Shown here in pieces: positions 18,288 to 35,147 of a stretch of 37,791 nucleotides of DNA (position 1 is the stretch's first letter; the number at the start of each line of letters is the position of its first letter). The stretch is from a virus, in IMG/VR virus record IMGVR_UViG_3300029267_002284, positions 1-37,791 of that record; one strand, 5' to 3'. Made by a program: the position numbers and the translations under genes. The notes beneath the pieces are model-generated. The model was not told the DNA's origin and did no database searches. It was given only the letters and a program-made list of their open reading frames with translations.

Positions 18288-20570
18288 ATGGCTCAAAAAA
18301 TCTATGGTCCGATCAGGGGCGCTGGCGTCCAGATCATCGAGAAAGAAGGCGACAAGACCATTGAGCCCGGCGCCCTTGGCATGGTTGGATACGCCGGGAT
18401 GTTTGAGAAGGGCATGGTCAATCAGTTGGTCTTCTGCCAAAACAAAACCCAATTCTTGAAAAAGATGGGCTCTTATATCGCTGACGGACAGGCTCCGGAC
18501 GCTTGCATCGACTATTATGACGGTGCGAACGGCGCAGGCGGGATTTGGCTCATCAGGATCACCGACGGCAACGAACTTCCGGCTGAAAAGACGTTGTACG
18601 CTCGATACGGTAGCATTCTCACGCCGATGGGGACGCTCAAAGCCAAGAACGGTGGGCGCTGGGGCGGCAAGAAGGCCGAGTACACCAACGACGTATCCGC
18701 CAGCGGCGACATTGCCGAAACCGCTCTCACGACCGGCGTGGCCACGTGGAAAGCCGATCAATGGAAGGGCGGCTGGTTGGAATTGGCCGACGTGCCCAAT
18801 AAACGGTATCCAATCATCGGGAATACCGAAGCGGGCGTCATCAGCGTCGCAACCGATCAAACCATGAAAACAGACTACGGTTCGGGCACTAGTCTTCGCT
18901 ATTACTTGTATTTGGAGAACGAAGGGAAGGAAGTGACCTTTGTAATCCGAGAGGGCGAAGAACAACCCGATGCCGAGTTCGCTTTGGACGTTTATGTGGA
19001 CGGCGCCGGCCCTGTAGTCTCTTGGCCGAACCTTAACACCGATCCGACCTCGGCGAGGTATTGGGTGAACTTGATCAACAACGACGGTAGAAACGACGAA
19101 GTGGAAGCCGTCAATCTTTGGACTGGCGCGCACACAGCTTCGGTTCGGCCGGCGAACGCTTACGGCGTCATCGGTTCCGTCACCGCGACCGTGTTGACGG
19201 CCGTCATCCATGATTTCGCGATCAATTCGCCGGGCGGCGGTGATCCGACTTTTGCGTTGGGAACCACGACCGATGAGATGCTCGCCCAAAAAATCACGAT
19301 CACGATGACGAGCGCCACCGAAGGCGACGCCGTGAGTGACAAATTCGGCGCTTTGGGATCTGTTACCCTTGGAACGCTCTTCACGCCGAACAACAAATGG
19401 ACGCCTCCATTTACTGTAACGGCGGGCGGAACCGCGCTGGCGGCGACTGATACCTTGGTGATCAATTACAAGCCCTTTGTGGCCGACCAATTGATCAACG
19501 GTTCGTTGTATCCGGATAAAGTGAACGCCAAGCGCACCTTCTTCCGGATCGTAGACAACGATCACAAAACGATTACCGTGGCCGACGGAAGCGACCTTAC
19601 AGCCGACGGCGAAGCCGATGACGAGTTCTTGGTTATCGCCCCAACGCCTCTCGAAGGCGGAAGAGATGGCCATGCCGATGTAGGCGACGCCGAGTACAAC
19701 TCTCAAGCTTGGGATACAGGCGTCAGCCCCTATAACCGATTGCTCGGAAAGAACGCTGGTGTAGTGAAGTTTGCCACCCCTGGAGTGACTTCGACGGCCG
19801 TTCAAAAGGCGGGCGTGGCCTACGCTAAGGCCAAAAATCATCAATACCGATACGAGATCCCGTCAAACAAGATCACCGAGCAAGAGGCTGATGAGTACGT
19901 CAATGAAACTCTCGGCAGAAGCGACTATGCGGTGGTCAGCTTCCCGTCCTACGCTTATGTGCCCGATCCCGAGGCCGGAACCGAAGGGAAATGGAAGTTG
20001 GTCACTTGTACCGGAATGATTCACGGCGCTGAAGCGTCTGTGGCCAAGAACTATGAAGGCTACCACAAGGCGGAAGCTGGCGTGGACGTGGTTCTGGCGA
20101 AAATTCTGGATTTGCCGACGGGCGACGCTATTTTGGACGAGGAATACCTCAATCCTCTCGGCATCGGCCTGATCAAGAAGAACAAGGGAAATTACATCCT
20201 CTGGGGAGATCGAACCTTGTGGACGGATTCGACCTGGAAGTGGAAACACCAAAGAGAGTTGATGTCCTACTACGAAAATGTGCTCAGAGAGAACTTTGAT
20301 TGGATCGTGTTCGCGATCAACGATCCGGCCGAACAACCGAAGGCTCTGGTGGCGCTCCAAGCTTACTTCTTGCCGGAATGGCAGAAACGGGCGATCCGAG
20401 GGGACACCTTCCAGGACGCGGCCATCATCAAAATTGACGCCGAGAACAACACCGATGTAACCCGAGCGGCCGGCGATATGTTCGCCGACATCGGATTGAG
20501 GTTGGCGGACACCGTCGAGAGGTTCCGCATCCGAATCGGGAAACAGGGCATCTTCGAGGCGGCAGCCTAG
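18288..20570 (+). CDS. Contractile tail sheath protein
   Basis: This protein polymerises around the tube and contracts at infection. The N-terminus (YGPIRGAGVQIIEKEG, GMVGYAG, IDYYDGANGAGGIWLIRI) and C-terminus (NYEGYHKAEAGVDVVLAKI, GIGLIKKNKGNYILWGDRT, FDWIVFAINDP, then DIGLRLADTVERFRIRIG) are typical of the sheath family. The central part (about 270-470), with AYGVIGSVTATVLTAVIHD and an alternating beta pattern, looks like an inserted surface domain, which explains the 760-residue length versus about 400-660 in many phages. ATG has a GGAGGAAAAGG site. The tube gene is two genes downstream. This gene proves a myovirus-type tail. Confidence 0.92.
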   Translation: MAQKIYGPIRGAGVQIIEKEGDKTIEPGALGMVGYAGMFEKGMVNQLVFCQNKTQFLKKMGSYIADGQAPDACIDYYDGANGAGGIWLIRITDGNELPAEKTLYARYGSILTPMGTLKAKNGGRWGGKKAEYTNDVSASGDIAETALTTGVATWKADQWKGGWLELADVPNKRYPIIGNTEAGVISVATDQTMKTDYGSGTSLRYYLYLENEGKEVTFVIREGEEQPDAEFALDVYVDGAGPVVSWPNLNTDPTSARYWVNLINNDGRNDEVEAVNLWTGAHTASVRPANAYGVIGSVTATVLTAVIHDFAINSPGGGDPTFALGTTTDEMLAQKITITMTSATEGDAVSDKFGALGSVTLGTLFTPNNKWTPPFTVTAGGTALAATDTLVINYKPFVADQLINGSLYPDKVNAKRTFFRIVDNDHKTITVADGSDLTADGEADDEFLVIAPTPLEGGRDGHADVGDAEYNSQAWDTGVSPYNRLLGKNAGVVKFATPGVTSTAVQKAGVAYAKAKNHQYRYEIPSNKITEQEADEYVNETLGRSDYAVVSFPSYAYVPDPEAGTEGKWKLVTCTGMIHGAEASVAKNYEGYHKAEAGVDVVLAKILDLPTGDAILDEEYLNPLGIGLIKKNKGNYILWGDRTLWTDSTWKWKHQRELMSYYENVLRENFDWIVFAINDPAEQPKALVALQAYFLPEWQKRAIRGDTFQDAAIIKIDAENNTDVTRAAGDMFADIGLRLADTVERFRIRIGKQGIFEAAA

Positions 20571-20926: not shown

Positions 20927-21367
20927 GTGAAAGGTGCAATCAAAGAAGATCACATCCCGATCAACAAATACGAGCTAGTTGTGCTTGGCCTGCCCCCGAT
21001 CACTTTCACGTCGGTCACTGGTTTGGAAGACGAGATCCAGACTACCGATTTGCCCGACAGAACGCGGGCGACCGGCGGAAACCGAGGGCCAACCGAGCTT
21101 GTAGCTCGCCATCCGCTTCACCACACCGGGGATCGGGCGGCTATGGAGATTTGGTTCAGAGAGTCGCAAGACCCTGTGACGCCAACCTACAAAAAGCCGG
21201 GCTATCTCTCGATGAAATCGATCAGCGGTCAGACGGTCGTGACCTATCCGCTCATCGGTATGTTCCCTACCAAACGGGTGATTCCCGATTTGGAGATGGA
21301 GAACGAGGGCGAAATGGCCCAACTGGAGTGGACGATCTCCGCAGACGACGTGCTGCCGCCTGTCTAA
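20927..21367 (+). CDS. Tail tube protein
   Basis: This is the inner tube subunit (T4 gp19-like). The 146 residues include NKYELVVLGLPPITFTSVTGLEDEI, of which ITFTSVTGL is the family-typical turn, then an RATGGNRGPTELVARHPLHHTGD loop containing GPTELVARH, EIWFRESQ, and a closing beta segment LEWTISADDVLP. The start is GTG with ATAGGAGATAAAC upstream. Length and position (after sheath, before tail chaperone) agree. The 73 bases that follow carry a protein-like open stretch without a start codon. Confidence 0.85.
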   Translation: MKGAIKEDHIPINKYELVVLGLPPITFTSVTGLEDEIQTTDLPDRTRATGGNRGPTELVARHPLHHTGDRAAMEIWFRESQDPVTPTYKKPGYLSMKSISGQTVVTYPLIGMFPTKRVIPDLEMENEGEMAQLEWTISADDVLPPV

Positions 21368-21440: not shown

Positions 21441-22295
21441 GTGAAGCCCGAAAAAAACCAAGAAAACCAGGAAACAGAAGCACAACACAAAGGCGTCTAC
21501 GCAACAACTCTCAAGGAGCGCGGGCCGGTTCTGCCTCTCGGAACGCTCGACGGAAGCGGGAAACTCTGCAAAGATATGCTTTGCCGTCGATGGAGGATGA
21601 AGGAAGAAACCGAGCTTGGCGAATTGCGAGATCGTAACAAGGACGCCAACGTGGCCCAATACGTGAACATGGTCATCGCGACGATGTATGAAACGTTGGG
21701 CCATCACAAACTCTCCAAAACGCACGAAACAGAGCGGAAGATTCTGCTCAGCCAGATGGATACCGGCGACATTTTCTATGCCTATATCTGGTTGAGAGTT
21801 CAAGCTCTCGGCCCGGAACTTGATGTCAACATCAAATGTCCGAATTGCGGCAAGGAGATCGCGTTCACAGCCGACTTGAACACGACGGAGATCCGTTGTG
21901 CCGATACTCTCGAAGACACCCATTGGGAATACAACCTTTTGGAGCCCTTCGAGATCAGAAACAAGCCGGCGAAGACGCTGCTGATGCAATCTGCTCCCTG
22001 GAATACCTTGGAGAGCATGAGTCCGCAAGGCGGATTGAATACCGGCGCGGCGAAGGCGGCGATGATCAGAGCTTCTATCCGGGGCATCAAAGATATTGAG
22101 GGCGCTTCTATCATTTCGCCTACGGAACTGGAAGAGATGGCCAAACGAGATATTGAACATCTGACGAGCATGATGAACAAGAAATATCTCGGGCCGAGGA
22201 TGATCGTCAAGGATCAATGCCCGAAATGCAAAGACAAATTCGAGGCGCCCATGGACTGGGGTTATGACGGTTTTTTCGGCGTTTCTTCCCAATAA
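21441..22295 (+). CDS. Tail assembly chaperone, zero-frame product (G-like, zinc ribbon)
   Basis: The start is GTG with GGAGGTGA upstream. The 284-residue product has a charged N-terminus, a helical region (WRMKEETELGELRD, VAQYVNMVIATMYETL) and two widely spaced knuckles, CPNC (Cys133/136) and CPKC (Cys260/263), likely to bind one zinc. Proteins with this layout occur between tube and tape measure genes (T4 gp26/51-like or tail chaperone annotations). Near its end the gene contains T TTT TTC at 22271-22277, and an open -1 frame continues to 22471, so this is most likely the short partner of a G/GT chaperone pair that binds the tape measure. Confidence 0.8.
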   Translation: MKPEKNQENQETEAQHKGVYATTLKERGPVLPLGTLDGSGKLCKDMLCRRWRMKEETELGELRDRNKDANVAQYVNMVIATMYETLGHHKLSKTHETERKILLSQMDTGDIFYAYIWLRVQALGPELDVNIKCPNCGKEIAFTADLNTTEIRCADTLEDTHWEYNLLEPFEIRNKPAKTLLMQSAPWNTLESMSPQGGLNTGAAKAAMIRASIRGIKDIEGASIISPTELEEMAKRDIEHLTSMMNKKYLGPRMIVKDQCPKCKDKFEAPMDWGYDGFFGVSSQ

Positions 22296-22320
22296 CGCCA
22301 ACCAACGCGATATGGGAAGA
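22271..22320 (+). promoter_or_regulatory. Programmed -1 ribosomal frameshift signal
   Basis: The heptamer T TTT TTC at 22271-22277 is in the correct phase (codons TTT 22272-22274 and TTC 22275-22277 in the upstream frame), so both tRNAs re-pair after a one-base backward slip. Downstream, GGCGTT 22278-22283 can pair with AACGCC 22294-22299, and TCTTCCC 22284-22290, which lies in that loop, can pair with GGGAAGA 22314-22320. The second stem begins six bases after the slip site, the usual spacing; together the stems resemble an H-type pseudoknot, although the first connecting loop would be zero bases long, so they may alternate. Confidence 0.75.
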
Positions 22321-22471
22321 GATTTTTGCCATAACCTATTTGATGCCTGGCTTCGTTTACGCCGATCTACAAGAATTGTCGGTGGAAAGGCGAAACTGGC
22401 TCATCAATAGGTTGATGAAGCAAAAGAAATTGGAGGCCGAAGAAATCAGGAAAGCATCTAGGGCGAAGTAG
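22277..22471 (+). CDS. Tail assembly chaperone, T-like extension made by -1 frameshift
   Basis: After slipping at T TTT TTC the ribosome would read CGG at 22277 and continue for 64 codons to the TAG at 22469-22471, giving a fusion of about 343 residues (279 from the zero frame). The extension is strongly protein-like: AIWEEIFAITYLMPGF, LQELSVERRNWLINRLM, then a charged helix to the end. It resembles gpT-type tails of tail chaperones that precede tape measure genes. It has no convincing start of its own: the internal TTG-ATG near 22340 lacks a ribosome site. It stops nine bases before the tape measure ATG. Confidence 0.78.
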   Translation, partial: RRFFPITPTNAIWEEIFAITYLMPGFVYADLQELSVERRNWLINRLMKQKKLEAEEIRKASRAK

Positions 22472-22479
22472 GAGGCCGT

Positions 22480-25290
22480 ATGGAACAGCTTGGACTATTT
22501 GGGGACTTGACGTTCAATGAGAAACAAGCTGTCTCGGCCATGGGTAGAGCCAGGATGGCTTTCGGTCGATTGAACCAAGCCTCAACCAAGCTTTCGCCGG
22601 CTATGGCCGCCATCGGGACGGCTACACAGAACATGGCCGCAAGATCAGTTCAAGCCTTCCGGAAAATCACTTCAGCAGCAGCACGAATGGCAACGTCCGT
22701 AGGCGCTTCTTTGAAGCGTATGAAAAACAATATGGCGCAGGTGGGTAAGGGGCTGAGCCAAGTGGGAGGGGCGATGAGGAGCGCAGCTATGGCTGCGCTA
22801 CCGGCAACGGTTGGAATGGCCCTGGGAGCGAAAACGGCGGCGAACTTCGAGAGCCAGATGTCGGCGGTTTCATCCATCACACAACTTTCCTCGAAGAACG
22901 CCGAAGAACATGCCGCAAATATGTCGATGCTTGAGAGGAAAGCCAAAAAGATGGGCATAGAAAGCGCCTTCAGCGCTACAGAATCCGGCCAAGCTATGGA
23001 GTATATGGCAAGGGCTGGCGCCACCGCTACCGAGATCGTGAGCGGTTTGGATGGCGTGATGAACGCGGCGGCGGCGGACGGCATGGGTTTGGCGGAAGCG
23101 GCTAACACGATCTCGCAAGTGGTTCGAGGGATGGGGCTAGGCTTTGAGCAATCGAGCCACGTGGCCGACGTTTTGGCCATGGCTTCGGCAAAAGGCAATA
23201 CCAATATTTCGCAATTGGGCGAGTCGATGAGATACGCGATGGCCCAAGCCAAGAGCATGGGCATCCCGTTGGAACAGGTGGTAGCGTCGCTGACGAAGGC
23301 GGCGGACGCCGGTTTGCAAGGTTCCATCGGCGGAACTTCGTTCACGAACATGTTGGTCAAGCTATCGAAGCCGAGCGCGAAGGCGGCGGCGCAGATGAAA
23401 GCTTGGGGCATCAAGCTCACCGATAGCAAGAAACGAATGAAATCGATGGGCCAAATCGTAAACATGTTCAAGAAAAGGCTCGATGGAATCAAAGATCCCG
23501 TAGAAAGAGCCAGAATGGCCACCGAACTTTTCGGCATCCGAGGCGCGAAGGCTTACAGCGCTTTAGCTTCGCAAGGCGGGGAAGCTTTGGATCGCCTCAC
23601 CGGAGCTTTGAAGAGTTCGGAAGGGGCAGCGGCTCGAATGGCCGAAGAGCGCTTGGATAATGTGCTTGGCCAATTAACATTGCTCAAATCATCGGTTTCC
23701 GGATTCTTCATTGAACTCTTCGGGCCGTTGATGAAGCCGATGGCAAAGGCTCTCAAGGAGTTGATAAAGGGCATCAACAGCGTCGTATTCGCCATCCAGG
23801 CTATTAAGGATGTGGGCTCGGCCAAAACCATGAAAGAGCTGAATTCGGCGATGGACAATCTGACCAAGGCCAGCTCGGAGTACGGTTCCACCGTGATGGA
23901 TATCGCTTGGGGCGTGATGGACGCTATCAAGTGGATGAAGGACGGTTGGAATAGCATCGTGTCCACGATCAAAAATGTAGCAAAGTGGTTCGGGGTAACA
24001 TTCGGAAAGAAAGGCGGGCTCAGGGACGTCACCGCGATGATCATCAAAATAGGCGTGGTAGCAGCGGCCCTGGCTCCGATAGCCTTGGTGCTCGGCGGGC
24101 TCGCTTTTGTCATCACTTCCGTAGTCATCCCGGCGATAACAGGGATCTTTGCCGCCTTCACCGGAGTTCTTGGATTGATGATGGGGCCGTTTGGGATCGC
24201 GGTTCTTCTATTGATCAACCACTTCAAAGATTTCAAGAAGGAGAACGAAACTTGGATGCAAGCGGCGTCGAGAGCGTGGAAGGAGTTGAAAGCCTGGGTG
24301 CTCGACGTTTGGAACAACGCCATCAAACCGTTCTGGCAAGGTATGAAAGACGCCTTCGGGCCGATTCTGTCGGAACTTCGGACCACTTGGAACGACACAA
24401 TGAATGTCATCCGGACGGCTATGGATGATATGGGTCTGCAGTTCTCTTGGCTCTCGAATAAAGGCCAAACGGACTGGAGGGAAATAGGGCGAACGGTAGT
24501 CAACGTGATCGGCTCGATTGTGACGGGCGTAGCGAAGATGGTTGGCACCATCGTTCAGTTCTTCGCCTGGATGGCGACGGTGGTGGAGAAATACATCAAA
24601 CGACCGTTCATGAGAGCTTGGGACGGGATCGTCAGATTCAAGAATAGCGTGGTGGAATTGTTCACCGTGGACTTCATACAGGGGTTGAAAGGTATCGGCG
24701 CGCAAATTGTCGACACCTTGATGAAACCGTTTCGCCACGTGTTCATCGCTCTCGAAGGGCTCTTCAAAAAGGCAGGCATGGAGGTTCCGGCGTTCTTCAA
24801 ATTCTTCACAGAGAGCGCAAAGCGTGTAGACCTCGCCGAACGCTTGGAGAAGGCGGGCATCTACGCAACGCCCGGCAACGCCAAACAAAAGGCGGCCGAA
24901 GTAGCAAGGGCAGCGGCGGCGGCTCGGCTCCAAGAGGAAGCCAAGTTTGAGGCCATTCGGGCTCGTGCGCAAAAGAAGAAACGCCAAGCAGCAACAATAC
25001 CTCGCCGCCGGCGCTTAGAATCTGGCACCCAAATGTACGTGGACAAAGCCCGAGAGTTGGCGGCGCTCGAAGCGAAGGCGAAGGGCTCGAAGGCTTCCAA
25101 GAGCAAGGTCGAAGCGGACATCAAAACCAAGCTCGAAGGTTGTATCAAGAACGATATCAAGCTCAATATGGATGGGCGCGATACGGCGGTGGCGACAGAA
25201 AGGCACCGCAAGGAGATCTCCGAAAGAGCGGGGTTCAAGGCCACGCCTTGGGCTCGACAAATGGCCATGGACCACGCCGTGGCGAAGTAG
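22480..25290 (+). CDS. Tape measure protein
   Basis: This 936-residue protein sets tail length and occupies the tube lumen before being ejected. Residues about 110-400 match the TP901-type core: NFESQMSAVSSITQLSS, ATESGQAMEYMARAGATATE, VVRGMGLGFEQSSHVADVL, QGSIGGTSFTNML and FGIRGAKAYSALAS. Hydrophobic segments at about 528-585 (VVAAALAPIALVLGGLAFVI, and the GVLGLMMGPFGIAVLLLI stretch) may cross the host membrane. The C-terminus is basic and helical. The ATG has a TAGGAGG site and follows the frameshifted chaperone gene by nine bases, as usual. At 0.15 nm per residue the tail would be about 140 nm. Confidence 0.93.
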   Translation: MEQLGLFGDLTFNEKQAVSAMGRARMAFGRLNQASTKLSPAMAAIGTATQNMAARSVQAFRKITSAAARMATSVGASLKRMKNNMAQVGKGLSQVGGAMRSAAMAALPATVGMALGAKTAANFESQMSAVSSITQLSSKNAEEHAANMSMLERKAKKMGIESAFSATESGQAMEYMARAGATATEIVSGLDGVMNAAAADGMGLAEAANTISQVVRGMGLGFEQSSHVADVLAMASAKGNTNISQLGESMRYAMAQAKSMGIPLEQVVASLTKAADAGLQGSIGGTSFTNMLVKLSKPSAKAAAQMKAWGIKLTDSKKRMKSMGQIVNMFKKRLDGIKDPVERARMATELFGIRGAKAYSALASQGGEALDRLTGALKSSEGAAARMAEERLDNVLGQLTLLKSSVSGFFIELFGPLMKPMAKALKELIKGINSVVFAIQAIKDVGSAKTMKELNSAMDNLTKASSEYGSTVMDIAWGVMDAIKWMKDGWNSIVSTIKNVAKWFGVTFGKKGGLRDVTAMIIKIGVVAAALAPIALVLGGLAFVITSVVIPAITGIFAAFTGVLGLMMGPFGIAVLLLINHFKDFKKENETWMQAASRAWKELKAWVLDVWNNAIKPFWQGMKDAFGPILSELRTTWNDTMNVIRTAMDDMGLQFSWLSNKGQTDWREIGRTVVNVIGSIVTGVAKMVGTIVQFFAWMATVVEKYIKRPFMRAWDGIVRFKNSVVELFTVDFIQGLKGIGAQIVDTLMKPFRHVFIALEGLFKKAGMEVPAFFKFFTESAKRVDLAERLEKAGIYATPGNAKQKAAEVARAAAAARLQEEAKFEAIRARAQKKKRQAATIPRRRRLESGTQMYVDKARELAALEAKAKGSKASKSKVEADIKTKLEGCIKNDIKLNMDGRDTAVATERHRKEISERAGFKATPWARQMAMDHAVAK

Positions 25291-32051: not shown

Positions 32052-35000
32052 GTGGCCGCTTCGTTTGTTGATTTCATAACTGGTTTAAACGGCCAGCTTG
32101 CAACGATTCCAACGGCTTCGTTTGCTTGCACGACTTTATTTACCACCCATTCAAATGACTCTTTTCTTGTTGCTACTATTGCCTTAGATAGCAACACGGC
32201 GTCGGTTTCTAGCATAACAACTAGCGGCGTCACTTGGACAAGAGCCGGATACATTTCCGCTAATTCACACCGCCTTGAATTGTGGTACGCCAAGAACGTC
32301 GATGCCGTAGACGGAACAAGCGTCACTTTCAATTTGTCAGCGGCGGTGAGGGCCGTTGCTCAAGTGTGTCGGTTCACCGGTGTTCCAACCGATGCGGTTC
32401 TTGACGTTGCGGTTGGAACGGCTTCTGGAATAAGCTCAATAATGTATACGGGATACAACGATCCAACCACGGCAGTTGATCTTTGCATCGGCGCGGTGTG
32501 TGCTATCCCGGATTACGCAGGGTTCTTGCTATCGCCGTGGTCTTCGCCACAAAATGGCTACGTTGATCCCAGTGGTTCGCTGATGGGCCAAAACCTATCG
32601 GTTGGTACATTTCCAAACGTAACATCCCTATTGCAATTGCTCACATTGTTCGACGTGACGCCCATAACGTCGAACCATCGAACGGGCGCTACATTCAGCA
32701 TCGCAAGCGTTCCAACTTCAAAGCCCTATATGGGAATTTTGGCCTCTTTCAAAGAAGGCTATGTTCCAGTCACACATTATCTTTCTGGAACGGCAAGCGG
32801 AACAAGTTCGGCGAGCGGAACGGCCGTTGCAAACCAGATCCGACGGATTCAAAGCAAGACGGCAATCGAAACGGCAACGTCAACGCTTTCGATGACATTG
32901 GACGCGGCGCCAACGCCAGGAAATGCGCTTCTTTTGGTCATTGGCGGCCAAGATGACGTTGATCCGTTTGTAACAAGCGTCGCCCAAACAGGGGTGACGT
33001 GGTCAAGAATAGCTTCGGAAAGAACAGAGCAATCGGGAAACTACCCTATCACGGAACTTTGGCTTGGAATTGTTGGCAATAGTCCGGGAACTGGGATCAC
33101 GGTTGTGACCATTTCGGATTCGGCGTCAACAAACCTTCAAGCGGTTTGTGCTGAATACTCCGGGGCGTCTCATGCGGACAAAACAGCAACGGCCCAAGGA
33201 CAACAGGCAGCAATTGAAGATCCGATGATTTTTGCCGATACGGCGGCGCCAACGTACACAAACGAGCTTTGGATCGGCGCAAAGGCCCATCGAGCAAACG
33301 ATCCGAGCCACGATGTAACAAACCATTATTCAATCGTTGGCGAAATCTCAGCGGGCTCTTTGAATACCGAGAATTGCGCGACAGGTCTATTCGAAAGGAT
33401 TGTTGACCAAAACACCGAAGACACTGGCTTTGAATGTTATGTTGACGCCCTTCGCTATTATGCATCGATCACGGTTACCCTTAGCGCTCTGAATCACGAG
33501 GTTTCCGGGACGGCAAGTGCCTCTTGCACGGCAAGCGCCGATCCTCATCCAATTAGCTTGATTCAGTCGAAAACCGTGGGCTCTTCCGGGGCTCAGTCTT
33601 CAGTCGTTGTGAATTTGGATCAGGCTCCACAGGAACGAAGCGTTTTGATCGCCTTTGTTCATGGCGGGCTCGATACGCAAAACTTGTCTAGCATCGTTCA
33701 AACCGGCGTTGTGTGGGCCGAGCTGAACAACTCGCCGGATCATCCGGATTCGGGAAGTCGTTGTCATCTTTGGTATGGAATAGTCGGAGCTGGGGCGGGC
33801 TCAAGCTTGACGATCAATTCGCCGGCGGCTCATATCCAAGTGATCGTCGTGAGCGAGTGGGAAGGGATCGATCTCGATACCCTTCATGATCAAACGGCCG
33901 GGAACCAAAACACAGGAACGACGCCTTCAACCGGAAACACGGCAACGACGACCTATCCCGTACAACTTTGGATTGGCGGGATGGGGTTTGGCGGAAGCGG
34001 GAAAAACTTTGCGCAAACGCCAACGAACGGTTTCCAAGTCCTCGGCCATTTAGACAACGCCGATACGGAAGCCGAATGCGTTTTCAGAAAAATGTTCGCC
34101 ACTGGCTCGGCCGGGTGTACGGATACACTTGGCGCTTCGGACCAAAATGTTGGTTTGATGACGACCTGGGATGCTATCCGGCCAACGGAAGTTTCCGGCG
34201 ACGTTGACGGGCAATCGAGCGAAAGTGGGACGCTCACCGGTGATTTTGGCATCATCGGCGCGGCGCTCGGCGTAGGTTCGGCGCCGCCAACGGACGTGGC
34301 CGTCATTTTTTCGGCCGAGGGCGACATTGGCGCCTTGTCTTCCGTTCCGTTGGCGGATCTTTCGGCTCTTTTCTCGGCCGAAGGTGACATCGCAGCGGCG
34401 CTTTCAATTGTCAACGCTCATACGGAAGTGATAATCACTTGTTGGGGGACGATTCAAGGTCAAAGCACGGTCGAAGGCGACGTTCAAAAGATCGTTGGTT
34501 GTATCGCCGATAATCTCTTGCAAAGTACAGTCGAAGGCGACGTTCAAAAGATCGTAGGGCTTTGGGGAACGGTTTGGGGGCAAGGATACGCGGCGGCACC
34601 TCTTACAGACACGCCTCGGGTCATGTTGATCGAAGCTCGAACCCCTACTTCATTCAGAGTGACATTCAGCGAAGAGATGTTGAAAGACGATAACCTGTCC
34701 AAGAAAACCAATTATACCATTACGCCTCAAACACCAGGTTCGGCTTTCTTGTACATCAACTCGATTCTTCCGGACAACGTTTTGAGGCCTTTTTTCGTAG
34801 ATGTGAACGTGTCGGAAATGACTGACGGCGCTGACTATAAAGTGGAAGTGAATAACATCACAGACAAGGACGGGAACCCCATAGACGTATCGTTGAACAA
34901 ATATACATTCGTGGGGCTCGGCGGGAAACCTTACGTGAAAAGAGTGGAAGCCGTCGCCGATAATCTGGTGAAGGTAGTTTTCAGCGAGCGGATGAAGAAC

Positions 35001-35147
35001 AATCCGGATTTGCGGAACCCGTCGAAATACGCCTTCAACAACGGTTTGATCGTGATAGCGGTCCAAAGCATTGAAGACGATGCTGTCATTCTGCTCACGA
35101 GCGAGCAAGACCCGAACCTTGTGTATGATTTGACCGTGACGCCGTAG
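32052..35147 (+). CDS. Large modular fibre-like protein A (three beta modules plus two Ig-like domains)
   Basis: The start is GTG with a weak ribosome site (GGTGAT). The 1031-residue product has three related beta modules at about 1-245, 262-485 and 501-712, each with a 'tGVtW' strand followed by an 'ELW.G.vG' strand, for example QTGVTWSRIASER and ELWLGIVGN. They are joined by Ser/Gly linkers such as HEVSGTASASCTASA. Residues about 713-850 hold repeats (SAEGDI, STVEGDVQKIVG), and residues 855-1031 form two tandem Ig-like domains of the SbsA type (FRVTFSEEM, LVKVVFSERM). It is probably a receptor-binding or surface tail appendage. The next gene encodes a shorter paralogue. Function is inferred. 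Confidence 0.72.
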   Translation: MAASFVDFITGLNGQLATIPTASFACTTLFTTHSNDSFLVATIALDSNTASVSSITTSGVTWTRAGYISANSHRLELWYAKNVDAVDGTSVTFNLSAAVRAVAQVCRFTGVPTDAVLDVAVGTASGISSIMYTGYNDPTTAVDLCIGAVCAIPDYAGFLLSPWSSPQNGYVDPSGSLMGQNLSVGTFPNVTSLLQLLTLFDVTPITSNHRTGATFSIASVPTSKPYMGILASFKEGYVPVTHYLSGTASGTSSASGTAVANQIRRIQSKTAIETATSTLSMTLDAAPTPGNALLLVIGGQDDVDPFVTSVAQTGVTWSRIASERTEQSGNYPITELWLGIVGNSPGTGITVVTISDSASTNLQAVCAEYSGASHADKTATAQGQQAAIEDPMIFADTAAPTYTNELWIGAKAHRANDPSHDVTNHYSIVGEISAGSLNTENCATGLFERIVDQNTEDTGFECYVDALRYYASITVTLSALNHEVSGTASASCTASADPHPISLIQSKTVGSSGAQSSVVVNLDQAPQERSVLIAFVHGGLDTQNLSSIVQTGVVWAELNNSPDHPDSGSRCHLWYGIVGAGAGSSLTINSPAAHIQVIVVSEWEGIDLDTLHDQTAGNQNTGTTPSTGNTATTTYPVQLWIGGMGFGGSGKNFAQTPTNGFQVLGHLDNADTEAECVFRKMFATGSAGCTDTLGASDQNVGLMTTWDAIRPTEVSGDVDGQSSESGTLTGDFGIIGAALGVGSAPPTDVAVIFSAEGDIGALSSVPLADLSALFSAEGDIAAALSIVNAHTEVIITCWGTIQGQSTVEGDVQKIVGCIADNLLQSTVEGDVQKIVGLWGTVWGQGYAAAPLTDTPRVMLIEARTPTSFRVTFSEEMLKDDNLSKKTNYTITPQTPGSAFLYINSILPDNVLRPFFVDVNVSEMTDGADYKVEVNNITDKDGNPIDVSLNKYTFVGLGGKPYVKRVEAVADNLVKVVFSERMKNNPDLRNPSKYAFNNGLIVIAVQSIEDDAVILLTSEQDPNLVYDLTVTP
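34461..34580 (+). repeat. Two tandem 60-base units encoding QSTVEGDVQKIVG
   Basis: Units start at 34461 and 34521 and differ mainly in their second halves; a third partial copy begins at 34581. The same type of unit occurs in the downstream paralogue at 36813-36932. The 20-residue period lies between the beta modules and the Ig-like domains. Confidence 0.75.

Follow-up and report, generated by a model that had tools for sequence, protein, structure and literature searches.

In bacteriophage lambda, gpG coats the tape measure protein, and gpGT recruits tail-tube subunits through its T part. The -1 frameshift that is conserved in long-tailed phages was described by Xu et al. (2004) and is taken up in a passage of a later review (Atkins 2016; PMC5009743), where T4 is quoted as an exception to the G-T frameshift and a likely +1 frameshift is reported in the myovirus HSTV-2. 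A chaperone frameshift is also annotated in Mycobacteriophage cluster C (PMC5122674). T4 gp26 and gp51 are counted among the hub assembly chaperones (PMC3004832); according to the same source gp51 is required yet absent from the T4 particle, with its function given as unknown, and older T4 genetics placed gp26 possibly within the hub.

The DNA analyzed here (the window, 37,791 nucleotides in all) is a 37.8-kb virus contig, and because it carries a tail sheath gene we assign it to a contractile-tail phage. The tail genes run in the order sheath, small ORF, tube, a gene that we call G together with a -1 frame that we call T, tape measure, and further baseplate genes (Table 1). The product of the tube gene is probably a gp19-like tail tube, as judged from a profile match and its position.

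Table 1. Features of the tail gene region, in coordinates of the window
Feature	Coordinates	Strand	Remarks
Tail sheath	18288..20570	+	phrog_23, E 6.4e-26
Tail tube, probable (gp19-like)	20927..21367	+	PF06841 E 6e-4, under curated cut-off; position 3' of sheath
Zero-frame G	21441..22295	+	284 aa, 32 kDa; T4 gp26 family, candidate tail assembly chaperone
Slippery heptamer T TTT TTC	22271..22277	+	In phase; kept in 43 distinct clade sequences
-1 frame T domain	22277..22471	+	64 aa past slip; HMM match, selection in relatives
Stimulatory RNA hairpin, candidate	22281..22323	+	Outer stem 22281-22291/22313-22323; 3-6 nt past slip site
Tape measure protein gene	22480..25290	+	phrog_1533, E 1.2e-83

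In profile searches the zero-frame product, which begins with a GTG codon and contains two zinc-ribbon-like CxxC motifs, matched PF12322 (T4_baseplate; E 1.6e-11, 44.8 bits, above the curated cut-off of 24.5 bits) and phrog_150 (baseplate hub; E 6.7e-12). By these matches it is a member of the T4 gp26/PF12322 family without sequence homology to lambda G. Proteins of this family are usually annotated as 'baseplate hub', and here the PF12322-type gene sits between the tube and tape-measure genes. Like lambda gpG/gpGT, the locus has its site just 5' of the tape measure gene, a slip close to where the first ORF ends, a short T extension and a predicted control of the product ratio. Unlike lambda, its zero-frame protein belongs to PF12322, carries the two CxxC motifs and is more than twice as long as the HK97 chaperone chain (107 residues), its slip site is U UUU UUC, and its stimulator is a hairpin. 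An earlier reading made from the letters of the window (the sequence-only reading) had proposed a G/GT tail chaperone pair; the slip, the position and the T extension agree with that proposal, but G itself is not a lambda-G sequence homologue.

The G gene ends in ...GAC GGT TTT TTC GGC GTT TCT TCC CAA TAA, so that T TTT TTC has the canonical X.XXY.YYZ phase and stands shortly before the stop codon, where the sequence-only reading had placed it. The -1 frame stays open between 22268 and a TAG at 22469-22471, with the tape-measure ATG 8 bases further on, and is bounded on its 5' side by a TGA at 22265-22267. This stop leaves a 28-nt overlap between the two frames, and a switch into -1 is therefore possible only within that overlap. 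Among the 11,802 codon positions in the likely genes of the window, in-phase T TTT TTC occurs twice.

The second copy (34790-34796) lies in a long gene (32052-35147), and the -1 frame there is closed after 9 codons. An in-phase A AAA AAC is found early in the gp26-like gene, at 21452-21458, with a 59-codon -1 frame behind it; it is probably a chance occurrence. We know of no conserved extension for either of these two heptamers.

A single-sequence scan of viral_contigs with the G protein alone returned no close relatives, a scan of genome_contigs returned no relatives, and a scan with the tape-measure protein gave 31 loci with no PF12322 match among them. A clade was assembled instead by a scan with the sheath protein, which yielded 57 loci at 38-70% identity; in 50 of these the 3' end of the gene was readable, and together with the window they make 51 loci, or 43 distinct neighborhoods. 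Every one of the 51 loci has an in-phase heptamer (50 TTTTTTC and one TTTTTTT), and every one has the T domain in the -1 frame, where the sequence-only reading had allowed that stops might break it. The zero-frame stop lies 5 codons past the slip site in 28 of the 43 distinct sequences.

The heptamer is kept beyond what protein coding would need, judging by its codons. The codon preceding TTT TTC ends in T in all 43 sequences (AGT, AAT, GAT, TCT, GGT, CAT or GCT) while the amino acid it encodes varies among Ser, Asn, Asp, Gly, His and Ala; elsewhere in the gene, 16-50% of codons in the matching families end in T. The naive probability of this outcome is 10^-20, a figure that is overstated because the shared ancestry of the clade members is ignored. 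In addition, the first Phe codon of the heptamer is always TTT, and elsewhere TTC outnumbers TTT by 312:178. Among the indications that the slip site itself is selected, these codon constraints are the strongest.

With base 22277 read twice, the GT fusion would comprise 343 aa (39 kDa), of which the T domain contributes about 60 conserved residues. We built an HMM of the T domain from the relatives alone, with the window left out, and used it to search a set of 1029 entries, made up of stop-to-stop ORFs from the window and a T4 region together with T4 gp26 and gp51; the -1 ORF of the window was the sole significant match (E 2.8e-16). Between relatives the T frame differs mostly at third codon positions, with dN/dS of 0.07-0.4 in pairs with unsaturated dS, a pattern indicating that the frame is under purifying selection. 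These results uphold the view of the 64-codon frame as protein-like, and its lack of a start of its own was likewise correctly read: the earliest starts are TTG 22340 and ATG 22343, which are codons 22-23 and lie beyond the conserved N-terminal half. In the clade, 20 of 43 members have no start at all 5' of a conserved E-x-F motif in this frame. Just as the sequence-only reading expected of ordinary gene calling, automatic annotation loses or misnames the T domain in the PF12322 family: in annotated relatives its ORF is either a stray 'hypothetical protein' or uncalled. DUF6760 was considered as a name for the domain and dropped; the T sequences have no Pfam match, and no paper was found to support the name.

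Two pairings are present 3' of the slip site, GGCGTT (22278-22283) with AACGCC (22294-22299) and TCTTCCC (22284-22290) with GGGAAGA (22314-22320), the latter far above chance. The sequence-only reading had seen both and combined them into an H-type pseudoknot of unusual layout, without a first linker. We rejected this pseudoknot. Its first stem abuts the slip site at zero spacing, where by known ribosome geometry the ribosome would hold it open, and in relatives it is 47% paired, the same as slid controls, with no covariation. The second pairing belongs to a nested hairpin at ordinary spacing, and with it the unusual layout vanishes. Folded from 22283 (+5 after the heptamer), the hairpin has a predicted energy of -16.2 kcal/mol and a z that lies between about -4.7 and -6.5 according to how much sequence is folded. 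Across the clade its outer stem has 334 paired cells against 307.8 +/- 6.8 in permuted data (1/20000), and in a 27-sequence alignment 83.3% of cells are paired, as compared with 78.0 +/- 1.1 in shuffled (0/500) and 46-59% in slid controls. Six of its pairs show two-sided changes in that alignment, and one pair occurs as UA in 16 sequences, CG in 7 and UG in 4 with none broken. Covariation thus looked for in both stems was found in the second alone, and comparison argues that the stimulator is this covarying hairpin and not a pseudoknot.

The stem arms double as coding sequence (SS(R/Q)* in the zero frame, EE in the -1 frame), so part of their conservation comes from coding. The downstream fold has a z below -2 in 22 of the 43 sequences, and where the distal 3' arm is lost, the 5' arm often pairs into a closer hairpin instead (for example in L084, L088, L108, L112, L126 and L134). 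Four members (L087, L091, L111 and L137) keep the heptamer and the T domain with no strong downstream hairpin, which is also absent from the more remote L035-37; the hairpin is therefore not obligatory.

Outside the clade, T TTT TTC/A/G is used in four remote lineages as well. The T domain follows in -1 at T TTT TTC in Agrobacterium phage Atu_ph07 (L069), L066 and L035-37, at T TTT TTA in L048, and at T TTT TTG in the L050-L063 group. Other phages likewise have the G family and T domain 5' of the tape measure gene but differ from the window in that T lies in +1 (or -2), among them SP-15, Streptomyces LuckySocke, Mel-JY01 and immuto. In this frame we found TTT TTT TGG in Microcystis Mel-JY01 and its kin and in Rhodothermus RM378, CTT TGG in Flavobacterium immuto, and CTC TGA or CTC TAA in Streptomyces phages L002, L044-L047 and L049; these Streptomyces sites resemble the autoregulatory prfB frameshift site CUU-UGA. 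In L041-L043, L056-L058, L060, L068 and L072 the T domain lies in +1 or -2 behind 7-8 consecutive T and then GG. The overlap in L058 is only 20 nt and starts with these Ts, so that the site is fixed there. SP-15 (L003), LIS04 (L064) and GXN1 (L065) have T in +1 with no obvious slip site. Candidate sites in these three are the T run or the CCC-CGA-like codons that follow.

T4 has two full-length PF12322 matches, gp26 (E 8.8e-64, residues 1-206 of 208) and gp51 (E 3.9e-52, residues 1-201 of 249, leaving 48 residues beyond), and in nine T4-like phages gp51 continues past the position at which gp26 ends. In profile-profile comparison, the clade GT aligned collinearly with gp51 through both G and T (P 1.2e-6), whereas with gp26 it aligned through G alone, ending ...FF at the slip-site position. 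The T domain by itself scored 32.8 against the gp51 C-terminus, with column-shuffled controls at or below 14.1 and the reversed control at 8.7. The T HMM search had given T4 gp51 no significant score (E 0.9), and the relation was recovered solely by profile-profile comparison. T4 gp26 thus resembles the G of the window in ending at the slip-site position, and gp51 resembles GT, except that its T-like tail is in frame in a separate gene with no frameshift. By profile searches there are two PF12322 copies in T4 and RB43 as compared with one in the frameshifting records, although one of these records, G046, also contains a second, marginal match (E 0.003-0.006).

An AlphaFold2 model of G (58 sequences, pLDDT 92.4) gave no significant match to the PDB by Foldseek. 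After re-alignment of 995 PDB chains, the HK97 tail assembly chaperone 2OB9 ranked top (Z 4.1, a value in the range of unrelated folds; 4.5 A over 92 of 107 residues) and the next chain had a Z of 2.0; 2OB9 was also top for an earlier, poorer model of G. HK97 2OB9 is 4% identical to G, which is far longer. The modeled resemblance is suggestive only, a modest tie to the classical G chaperones. Among predicted viral structures, the G model matched proteins of baseplate hub assembly, with SP-15 and gp51-like entries among them.

We consider it very probable that a -1 ribosomal slip at U UUU UUC gives rise to both G and GT, which would serve as chaperones of the tape measure and tube. The majority of ribosomes would finish the zero-frame gene and release G, and a minority, with tRNA-Phe on UUU in the P site and on UUC in the A site, would slip back one base, promoted by the hairpin meeting the ribosome a few nucleotides downstream, and read 64 more codons to make GT. 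By analogy with lambda, G would form a coat on the tape measure protein and GT would use its T part to recruit tail-tube subunits (the product of the probable tube gene being the expected partner), and both G and GT would be absent from the finished tail. All comparative tests that could be applied favor the frameshift. Comparison among relatives shows the phase, the conserved heptamer, a T domain under selection, the covarying hairpin and the gene order, and with them supports the original proposal of a short and an extended product encoded just 5' of the tape measure gene; from these we infer slippage itself, its rate and the binding roles.

A run of six consecutive Ts, which reaches 7-8 T in many +1-frame relatives, might also permit transcriptional slippage, with an inserted base giving a fusion mRNA. 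We judge this very unlikely, since six Ts followed by C, a run short for slippage, are kept in all but one of the 43 distinct sequences, other -1 lineages keep T TTT TTA/G, and the covarying hairpin stands at ribosomal spacing. Even less probable is that the -1 frame is a separate small gene with an internal start and no fusion, as annotations of relatives that call a short ORF would have it (LuckySocke 91, SP15_046 and RM378 p030); the late starts in the window and the many clade members lacking an early one speak against it, and it leaves the heptamer, the forced T and the short overlap unexplained. A one-base sequencing error, or an open frame arising by chance, could produce such an overlap in a gene that is naturally single-framed, but 43 distinct sequences from many contigs share one frame break at one and the same codon, which already refutes this reading and leaves it with practically no probability.

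A different alternative accepts the frameshift and takes G/GT for a baseplate-hub component or a hub-specific factor instead of a tape-measure chaperone. The PF12322 annotation as baseplate hub and the action of T4 gp26 and gp51 in hub assembly (PMC3004832) favor it, but tube and tape measure genes directly flank the gene, a position that it shares with lambda-type G/GT, T4 gp51 is needed without being in the particle (PMC3004832), and the HK97 chaperone fold match, although weak, points away from it as well. On balance we think a hub role unlikely and retain the G and GT chaperones as the preferred reading.

Extending the chaperone reading to the whole gp26 family, we find it reasonably probable that a large contractile-tail branch has this family as its G/GT chaperone, normally encoded by one gene with -1 or +1/-2 recoding, and that in T4-type phages the gene was duplicated, gp26 being a frozen G and gp51 a frozen GT. 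On the profile evidence, T4 likely swapped slippage for gene duplication. If true, this would assign gp26 and gp51 the concrete and testable roles of G and GT, and the family would offer an example of gene duplication taking over from recoding. Our literature search, mostly of openly available papers, found no report of a frameshift in the gp26 family and none pairing gp26/gp51 as G/GT. The mechanism is known in kind; what seems new is that the T4 gp26 family employs it and that it connects to gp26/gp51. In this uncultured contractile-tail phage, one frameshifted gp26-family gene appears to give two tail-building forms. T4 genes 26 and 51, at L070:4803-6229, are paralogues within one Pfam family, and in RB43 and KP5 genes 26 and 51 lie in tandem.
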